A program made the position numbers and the translations under genes. From a virus, in the IMG/VR virus record IMGVR_UViG_3300026519_000056, positions 1-26,679 of that record: a DNA stretch of 26,679 bases; one strand, 5' to 3'. Shown one piece after another: positions 5,353-6,378 of this stretch. The notes below the pieces were generated by a model that searched no databases, had not been told where the DNA came from, and saw nothing but the letters and a program-made list of their open reading frames with translations. Position 1 is the first letter of the stretch, and every line of letters starts with the position of its first letter.

Positions 5353-6378
5353 ATGACGGCCTACTACAACGAGAATGATCCAGAGGCAGCAGCCGTCCTG
5401 CGGGAGTTGATCAAGGTCGGCCTCATCGCACAGGGCGAGGTCGATGACCGCAGCATTCGGGAGGTCGATCCGAGAGACCTCGCGGGGTTCACCCAATGTC
5501 ATTTCTTCGCGGGGATCGGCGTCTGGAGCTACGCCTTGCGTCTGGCAGACTGGCCGGACGACAGCCCTGCCTGGACCGGCTCATGCCCGTGCCAGCCTTT
5601 TTCATCCGCCGGAAAACGCAAGGGAACCGAAGATGACCGCCACCTTTGGCCCGTATGGTTCGACCTCATCCGAGAGTGCCAGCCTGTCGTCGTATTTGGC
5701 GAACAGGTTGCGTCGAAGGACGGCCTCGGTTGGCTCGACCTTGTATCGGCTGACCTGGAAGCAGCGGACTACGCCCTCGGGACGACCGATCTTTGCGCTG
5801 CGGGCGTCGGTGCACCGCATATCCGCCAGCGGCTCTTTTTCGGGGCCTACCATCGCCGATCTGCCCTGCCGGGGCTGGGCCACCACGACCGCGCGGGATG
5901 GCTCTCGCGGAACGCTGCCGCCCCGACCGACCGACGCGGGAGTTCCGCTGGATCAGATGGCCGCGCTGGCGGGCTGGGTCACGGCGTCGGCGCGGGACTG
6001 GAAGGACACGCCCGGCATGGCGACGGAGGCGGTGAACCCGGACGGATCGAAGCGAAAGCGAGTGGATCAGCTGCCCCGACAGGCGCTGCTGGCCCTGGGC
6101 ACCCCGGTCCGACGAACGGCTTCTGGAGAGATGCTGACTGGCTCCTCTGCCGGGATGGAAGGTGGCGCCCCGTTGAACCCGGAACATTCCCGCTGGCTAA
6201 TGGGTCTCCCGCCCGCGTGGGGCTTTTGCGCTGCTATGGCAATGCAATCGTTCCCGAGGTCGCAAAGGCGTTCATCTGTGATTTCCGGGACGCCTTCCAT
6301 GCGCTCAAGGACACCGACGCCTTCCTCGAAGGTTACGGTGAAAGAGCTTCTGAGCTAGAGGCCCGCGATGCCGATTGA
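5353..6378 (+). CDS. dcm: phage C5-cytosine DNA methyltransferase
   Basis: A 341-residue protein. Motif I is F52-A-G-I-G56, motif IV is P79-C80-Q-P-F-S84 with C80 the catalytic nucleophile, motif VIII is R158-Q-R160, and motif X is G296-N-A-I. The motif VI triplet is E117-Q118-V119 rather than the textbook E-N-V, a form I associate with phage members of the family. The target recognition region lies between motifs VIII and X (about 165-250) and in this frame is Gly/Arg/Ala-rich and poorly structured. Over 5860-6100 another frame has better third-position GC (see 5633-6358). The C-terminus, W-R-P-V-E-P-G-T-F-P-L-A and beyond, again looks authentic. It likely protects phage DNA from host restriction. 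No partner restriction enzyme is visible. The gene overlaps the polymerase start by 11 bp. Confidence 0.85.
   Translation: MTAYYNENDPEAAAVLRELIKVGLIAQGEVDDRSIREVDPRDLAGFTQCHFFAGIGVWSYALRLADWPDDSPAWTGSCPCQPFSSAGKRKGTEDDRHLWPVWFDLIRECQPVVVFGEQVASKDGLGWLDLVSADLEAADYALGTTDLCAAGVGAPHIRQRLFFGAYHRRSALPGLGHHDRAGWLSRNAAAPTDRRGSSAGSDGRAGGLGHGVGAGLEGHARHGDGGGEPGRIEAKASGSAAPTGAAGPGHPGPTNGFWRDADWLLCRDGRWRPVEPGTFPLANGSPARVGLLRCYGNAIVPEVAKAFICDFRDAFHALKDTDAFLEGYGERASELEARDAD
5633..6358 (+). CDS. putative overprinted ORF within dcm (+1 frame)
   Basis: A 241-codon frame lies wholly inside the methyltransferase gene. ATG 5633 is preceded at 7 bp by AAGGGA (5620-5625). The product contains L-T-W-K-Q-R-T-T-P-S-G-R, A-L-R-A-S, G-W-A-T-T-T-A-R-D, A-R-D-W-K-D-T-P-G-M, D-Q-L-P-R-Q-A and L-N-P-E-H-S-R-W-L-M-G, a pattern I recall from many phage proteins annotated as methyltransferase-related. 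Third codon positions are very GC-rich between about 5860 and 6100, more so than in the methyltransferase frame. Either both frames are translated, or the recognition domain was moved out of frame by two compensating shifts, or frame 2 is a shadow of conserved frame 1. Function unknown. Confidence 0.4.
   Translation: MTATFGPYGSTSSESASLSSYLANRLRRRTASVGSTLYRLTWKQRTTPSGRPIFALRASVHRISASGSFSGPTIADLPCRGWATTTARDGSRGTLPPRPTDAGVPLDQMAALAGWVTASARDWKDTPGMATEAVNPDGSKRKRVDQLPRQALLALGTPVRRTASGEMLTGSSAGMEGGAPLNPEHSRWLMGLPPAWGFCAAMAMQSFPRSQRRSSVISGTPSMRSRTPTPSSKVTVKELLS

Follow-up and report, generated by a model that had tools for sequence, protein, structure and literature searches.

A prophage cytosine methyltransferase gene with a second conserved protein in its +1 frame, probably a specificity subunit built from swappable cassettes

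The window, the whole 26,679-nucleotide stretch of DNA that was analyzed, is a prophage in which integrase, terminase, portal, and capsid genes are present. Its replication module houses, flanked by a single-stranded DNA-binding protein and a family A DNA polymerase, a gene (positions 5353 to 6378, plus strand) that is almost certainly dual coding, a conclusion held as firmly as sequence comparison permits. The frame 1 product, designated alpha (5353 to 6378; 341 amino acids), was identified as the catalytic polypeptide of a cytosine-5 (m5C) DNA methyltransferase from matches to PF00145 and PHROG_363 and from profile alignment. The +1-frame product, designated beta (5444 to 6358, plus strand; 304 amino acids), was identified from matches to PHROG_31772, PHROG_1008, and the A1 profile and from a depletion of stop codons. 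The small open reading frame (ORF) lies entirely inside the large one and is thus truly nested. The same genome has a second, distantly related methyltransferase gene (G000:C457, locus L194) with a beta ORF in its +1 frame; these ORFs (2899-1442 and 2667-1429, minus strand) overlap in the same relative frame as those of the window gene.

Alpha has the AdoMet and catalytic motifs that define a C-5 cytosine methyltransferase, including PCQ and motif VIII. The Pfam match (PF00145; E value, 3.7e-13) was limited to residues 74 to 169, and the profile alignment with canonical methyltransferases (E value, 4.8e-18) covered residues 3 to 170 and ended at residue 170; the E value for PHROG_363 was 5.1e-80. 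All of motifs I to VIII and motif X are in alpha, and they are invariant or nearly so across 83 homologues. On the plus strand, these include motif I (QCHFFAGIG; 5494 to 5520), which is conserved in A2; motif IV (PCQPFS; 5587 to 5604), with the catalytic Cys and with P79, C80, and Q81 invariant in A2; a motif VI-like segment (FGEQV; 5695 to 5709), with G116, E117, and Q118 invariant; motif VIII (GAPHIRQRL; 5809 to 5835), with R158 and R160 invariant; and motif X (RVGLLRCYGNAIVPEVA; 6214 to 6264), with G296 and N297 invariant. In m5C methyltransferases, a target-recognition domain and motif IX sit between motif VIII and motif X. Alpha does not form this full canonical chain, as neither was found in its frame. 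The place of the target-recognition domain is taken by a Gly/Ala/Arg-rich low-complexity linker of 92 amino acids (5836 to 6111, plus strand), which stays open as a reading frame, is not conserved in amino acid sequence, and faces the cassettes of beta.

The +1 frame is open from position 5411 to a TAG at 6356 to 6358, with ATG codons at 5444 (304 amino acids) and 5633 (241 amino acids). Beta matched PHROG_31772 (E value, 2.5e-20) and PHROG_1008 (E value, 2.3e-18). Both families are labelled "DNA methyltransferase," yet they match +1-frame proteins, in which Pfam detects no methyltransferase domain. There is no Pfam or NCBIfam model for the beta family, and the isolated matches of +1-frame proteins to Pfam and NCBIfam were set aside as noise. 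The conserved parts of the family are a helix plus a beta-hairpin, a C-terminal LNPxxxxWLMGxPxxW segment, and, between them, one to five W-x-T-P cassettes of ∼37 amino acids. In the window, these are represented on the plus strand by a helix and hairpin core containing GSTLYRLTWKQRTTPSGRPIFALRAS (5672 to 5812); cassette 1 (WATTTARDGSRG...AALAG; 5876 to 5974), which splitting into cassettes placed in a singleton family; cassette 2 (WVTASARDWKDTPGM...LPRQALLALGTP; 5975 to 6106), a member of cassette family 0; and a motif IX-like segment (LNPEHSRWLMGLPPAW; 6173 to 6220) that is near-invariant in A1 and A4.

AlphaFold models were of low confidence both for the window beta (pLDDT, 62) and for a compact member of the family (pLDDT, 66), and only the helix and hairpin were confident in either. 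This core was the sole long confident part of the window model (pLDDT, about 80 to 92), and it recurs in the family model. No usable match was found when the models were compared with the PDB by Foldseek and VIA-align, which does not exclude a shared fold, and PDB sequence searches with A1 and A4 returned nothing relevant. The single match of A4 to canonical methyltransferases placed LNPxxxxWLMGxPxxW on LTPREAARLQGFP and was weak (E value, 0.042; probability, 1.2%). This direct profile match is no more than suggestive of canonical motif IX. Near the N terminus of beta, a QLxLF or QLTLF-type motif was present in 12 of 23 low-GC homologues, compared to 0.13 expected, and at 39 of the 160 loci fetched with the beta profile (these homologues and loci lie within L241 to L310 and L311 to L470). 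The motif resembles the beta-clamp binding pentapeptide and might hold the enzyme at replication forks.

Viral loci were gathered separately with frame 1 alone as the query (L082 to L160) and with the +1 frame as the query (L002 to L081), and the null expectation was obtained by shuffling synonymous frame 1 codons gene by gene, which keeps the frame 1 protein and its codon usage. The open +1 run of the window was 315 codons long, compared to 174 expected (P about 0.01 or less). Open +1 runs exceeded the shuffle expectation in nearly every homologue; −1 runs did not. Across window codons 45 to 284, no +1 stop codon was found in 39 dereplicated homologues picked by frame 1 alone, compared to about 120 expected (summed over bins), and the −1 frame had no comparable loss of stops in the same 39 homologues. 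A hidden Markov model from one half of the loci scored held-out +1 translations at 287 to 379 bits, versus means of 109 to 141 bits for shuffled sequences. Given the +1 protein, frame 1 was also without stops through the cassettes (0 versus 207 and 0 versus 32 expected). Only genes reaching motif X were taken for this count; frame 1 was short at one locus only (L064). No long +1 ORF signal and no beta profile score were detected in 29 canonical full-length PF00145 enzymes of restriction-modification systems.

Substitution rates were calculated by frame 1 codon position (1/2/3) from 37 independent close pairs. The rates were 0.067/0.053/0.252 in codons 1 to 30, outside the overlap; 0.069/0.043/0.160 from codon 30 to motif VIII, with motifs I to VIII under ordinary frame 1 constraint; 0.196/0.127/0.122 in the middle; 0.074/0.032/0.070 in the C-terminal overlap; and 0.118/0.100/0.210 in the tail past the overlap. 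Fisher P values for the main contrasts ranged from 2e-9 to 4e-41. Because position 1 of frame 1 is the wobble position of the +1 frame, the middle is ruled by the +1 frame, the C terminus by both frames, and the nonoverlapping ends by frame 1. Frame 1 third positions evolved 3.6-fold more slowly in the C-terminal overlap than outside the overlap. The +1 stop depletion, the substitution rates, and the avoidance of stops in frame 1 thus indicate that both frames are maintained.

The initial annotation had raised dual coding as one explanation for a second plausible gene within the methyltransferase, to be refuted by homologues with +1 stops, an intact frame 1, and normal synonymous variation in the overlap. 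The stop counts and the slowed third positions are the opposite of that pattern, and dual coding is now very strongly supported. Three +1 motifs that it quoted are present and recur in homologues. It also described a higher third-position GC content in the +1 frame than in frame 1 from about 5860 to 6100; this excess does exist, but over a narrower range, mainly 5923 to 6036 (0.89 versus 0.61), with slight differences at 5809 to 5922 and 6037 to 6150.

Translation of beta is inferred. Constraint on the +1 frame begins near codon 30 to 45, which makes 5444, or its equivalents in other genes, the probable point of translation start. The probable main start in the window consists of AGGGCGAGG and the ATG at 5444 (5432 to 5446, plus strand), and at codons 24 to 42 a Shine-Dalgarno (SD) sequence combined with a start codon was found in 43 of 83 homologues, compared to 19 expected. 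A second possible internal start, AAGGGA with the ATG at 5633 (5620 to 5635, plus strand), would yield 241 amino acids, and SD and start combinations at codons 88 to 96 were found in 37 of the 83 homologues (13.1 expected). In the low-GC group, 16 of 23 homologues had the combination at the expected beta starts (5.2 expected); control positions were not enriched. The earlier proposal that the nested gene starts at 5633 was accurate in its particulars (AAGGGA at 5620 to 5625, 7-nucleotide spacing, and 241 sense codons to the TAG) and is consistent with the enrichment at this site, but 5444 is the likely start, instead of or alongside 5633. It is possible that beta yields two products, one per start.

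The same two-in-one arrangement recurs across hundreds of phage and bacterial genomes. A search of bacterial genomes with the +1 profile recovered distant methyltransferases with the overlap in the same relative frame, and a group of 26 dereplicated enzymes related to one from a Lacticaseibacillus phage (GC content, 39 to 60%) had the same pattern, apart from a few of the most divergent members. A search of viral contigs with the Papez enzyme returned a near-identical copy only. The association of beta with alpha is strict: a profile of beta alone (A3) fetched 160 loci from IMG/VR and GTDB genomes, a methyltransferase ORF overlapped by >150 bp in the same relative frame at all 160, and no standalone beta was found among them. 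According to record titles, the genome loci from this search span Bacillota, Bacteroidota, Acidobacteriota, Coriobacteriia, and Pseudomonadota.

Annotation generally reports just one of the two frames, and sometimes the one retained is the +1 frame. The GenBank records of R6L, phiKX1, and LPPA33 annotate the +1 frame and have no coding sequence in the catalytic frame (L164, 1882-2265; L205, 2312-2920; L207, 1781-2383). R6L names the +1 frame a cytosine-specific methyltransferase, and both R6L and phiKX1 carry a minus-strand ORF annotated over the gene. In K1ind2 (as "Mte8-like"), PhiXhv-28, and Paenibacillus phage Bloom, both overlapping ORFs are annotated without comment (L163, 1583-2380; L165, 1303-2208; L201, 1751-2455).

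The middle of beta is a modular string of cassettes that are shuffled among phages and lie where a target-recognition domain is expected, but in the +1 frame. Among 222 cassettes from 87 proteins of the window's group, 34 cassette families were common to at least two proteins; 27 of these occurred in at least two neighbor contexts and 23 at at least two positions. Family 0, to which cassette 2 of the window belongs, was the commonest (21 proteins, 16 neighbor contexts, and ordinal positions 0 to 2). Between cassettes of the same length, identity was higher in the +1 frame (mean, 77%) than in frame 1 (42%) in 105 of 105 pairs. Entire cassettes have been gained, lost, or exchanged between close phage relatives. 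At L267 and L276, part of the motif IX-like segment and cassettes lies in the other frame, which looks like the swap of frames that an indel would produce.

Cassettes in frame with the catalytic motifs were found only in some actinophages and not in the window. In gp67 of Shauna1, cassettes and a WMMGxPxGW domain are in frame between motif VIII and motif X (E value, 1.7e-9), so that the segment homologous to LNPxxxxWLMGxPxxW comes before motif X on the same chain. Fancypants likewise has cassettes and a WMMGWP segment in frame with the catalytic domain (E value, 2.9e-8). In Rebeuca (gp80/gp79), Miramae, Peaches, and Catdawg, a separate beta gene directly follows alpha and overlaps it by 23 to 209 nucleotides in the +1 frame, and in PhluffyCoco the two are separate genes 43 nucleotides apart. 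An actinophage beta-like gene adjoining alpha carries a DNA methylase annotation. Arthrobacter phage 1191A (L477, 940-2055) is mixed, with a WMMGL segment and motif X in the catalytic frame and cassettes in the +1 frame. The in-frame actinophage enzymes show that the suggestion of a displaced recognition domain in the initial annotation was close, in the evolutionary sense that the same cassette domain can be found in frame with the catalytic domain.

The cassettes occupy the place of the target-recognition domain, and in actinophages their counterparts are encoded in frame or in an adjacent gene. The best reading of beta is therefore as the specificity subunit of a heterodimeric m5C methyltransferase with an M.EcoHK31I-like architecture (probability, about 0.78), although homology to M.EcoHK31I was not compared. 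A single prophage gene would yield two polypeptides through internal initiation. Alpha would supply the AdoMet and catalytic motifs I to VIII and motif X, with the linker replacing the target-recognition domain, and beta would supply the helix and hairpin core, the swappable W-x-T-P cassettes, and the motif IX-like segment. It is inferred that the two join as a single cytosine-5 methyltransferase whose activity needs beta and in which the cassettes of beta, by inference from their position, would pick the target sites. Methylation may then shield phage DNA from host restriction, an inferred role in which a cassette swap would change the protected sites.

High-GC DNA often has long shifted ORFs, as the null mean of 174 codons illustrates here, but the idea that the +1 ORF merely results from a GC-rich composition combined with conserved frame 1 residues can be dismissed with near certainty. 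It is contradicted already by the conserved stop-free +1 frame; nulls that keep the frame 1 protein and codon usage were exceeded, including in homologues of 39 to 60% GC; and the pattern is absent from the 29 canonical restriction-modification methyltransferases. There is equally little room for the converse, that frame 1 has decayed and beta alone is functional. The lack of amino acid conservation in the cassette region would fit such decay, but motifs I to VIII and X have been kept in the 83 homologues, frame 1 stops are avoided, and motifs I to VIII remain under ordinary frame 1 constraint.

It also seems quite improbable that programmed frameshifting, another proposal of the initial annotation, fuses frame 1 to the +1 frame and back into one chimeric methyltransferase. 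A path from frame 1 to +1 to frame 1 would restore the canonical motif order, which is an inference only, but the freedom of frame 1 from stops through the cassettes would be needless if ribosomes left that frame there. Furthermore, +1 constraint reaches well upstream of motif VIII, some actinophages have two separate ORFs, and the +1 frame has its own SD and start enrichment, so that independent internal initiation is preferred to frameshifting. The rival that retains the most weight, while still unlikely, is that beta is a genuine overprinted protein that acts on its own, for instance as a clamp-binding or anti-restriction factor, and is no methyltransferase subunit. The clamp-like QLxLF motif and the absence of a fold match to methyltransferase domains would be consistent with a separate job. 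However, beta was never found away from a methyltransferase among the 160 loci, and in actinophages its cassette part is either fused between motifs VIII and X or adjoins alpha as an annotated DNA methylase.

In prokaryotes, long dual-coding regions on a single strand are considered rare. The overlap described here is conserved in phages and prophages of Pseudomonadota, Bacillota, Bacteroidota, Actinomycetes, and others, and the evidence leans toward a large and ancient class of phage cytosine methyltransferases that keeps swappable target-recognition cassettes in an overprinted frame, with exchanged cassettes staying open in both frames. If so, few dual-coding gene families in prokaryotes and phages would be larger, and phages would have a route to multispecific anti-restriction methylation that has not been described before. 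Should beta be the specificity subunit, many phage methyltransferases that have been annotated or assayed as single genes represent only half of an enzyme, cassette content may reveal their specificities, and the cassettes form a natural library on how phages track host restriction systems. The series of fused, adjacent, overlapping, and nested forms makes the origin of an overprinted gene directly studiable.

With M.AquI and M.EcoHK31I as two-polypeptide precedents, an enzyme of this kind is already known, and the small ORF of M.EcoHK31I is reportedly nested in the large ORF in another frame. Both are m5C methyltransferases, and M.EcoHK31I, which recognizes YGGCCR (Lee, Kam and Shaw 1995, cited in PMC3404938), resembles the window gene in having a large polypeptide with motifs I to VIII and X and a separate small polypeptide, which contains motif IX (PMC3404938). 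It differs in being a single restriction-modification system, whereas the genes of the window class belong to phages and carry shuffled cassettes in variable strings. Its target-recognition domain was predicted to be in the large subunit (PMC3404938), contrary to the role proposed here for beta. M.AquI also has its catalytic part and its C-terminal variable part on two polypeptides (PMC3404938), but motifs IX and X are both in the small one, as in mycobacteriophage Rebeuca gp80/gp79, whereas motif X of the window gene is in alpha. The multispecific methyltransferases of Bacillus phages SPR, phi3T, and H2, with tandem target-recognition modules (PMC8936443), are a functional analogue, but their modules are in frame on one polypeptide rather than in the +1 frame. 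Like beta, the ShiLan element is a hidden ORF in another frame of a phage methylase gene, but it is a mobile insertion that occurs sporadically in mycobacteriophage methylases and encodes an HNH endonuclease (PMC11855218). Beta was considered as an out-of-frame HNH element of this type and rejected; it has no Pfam HNH match, and almost no relative lacks it. No description of the overlap was found in the literature searched, in which "Mte8-like" occurs once, unexplained. As far as that search extends, what is new is the near-universal occurrence of the arrangement in a large phage class, the shuffling of overprinted cassettes, and the series from fused through adjacent to nested genes.
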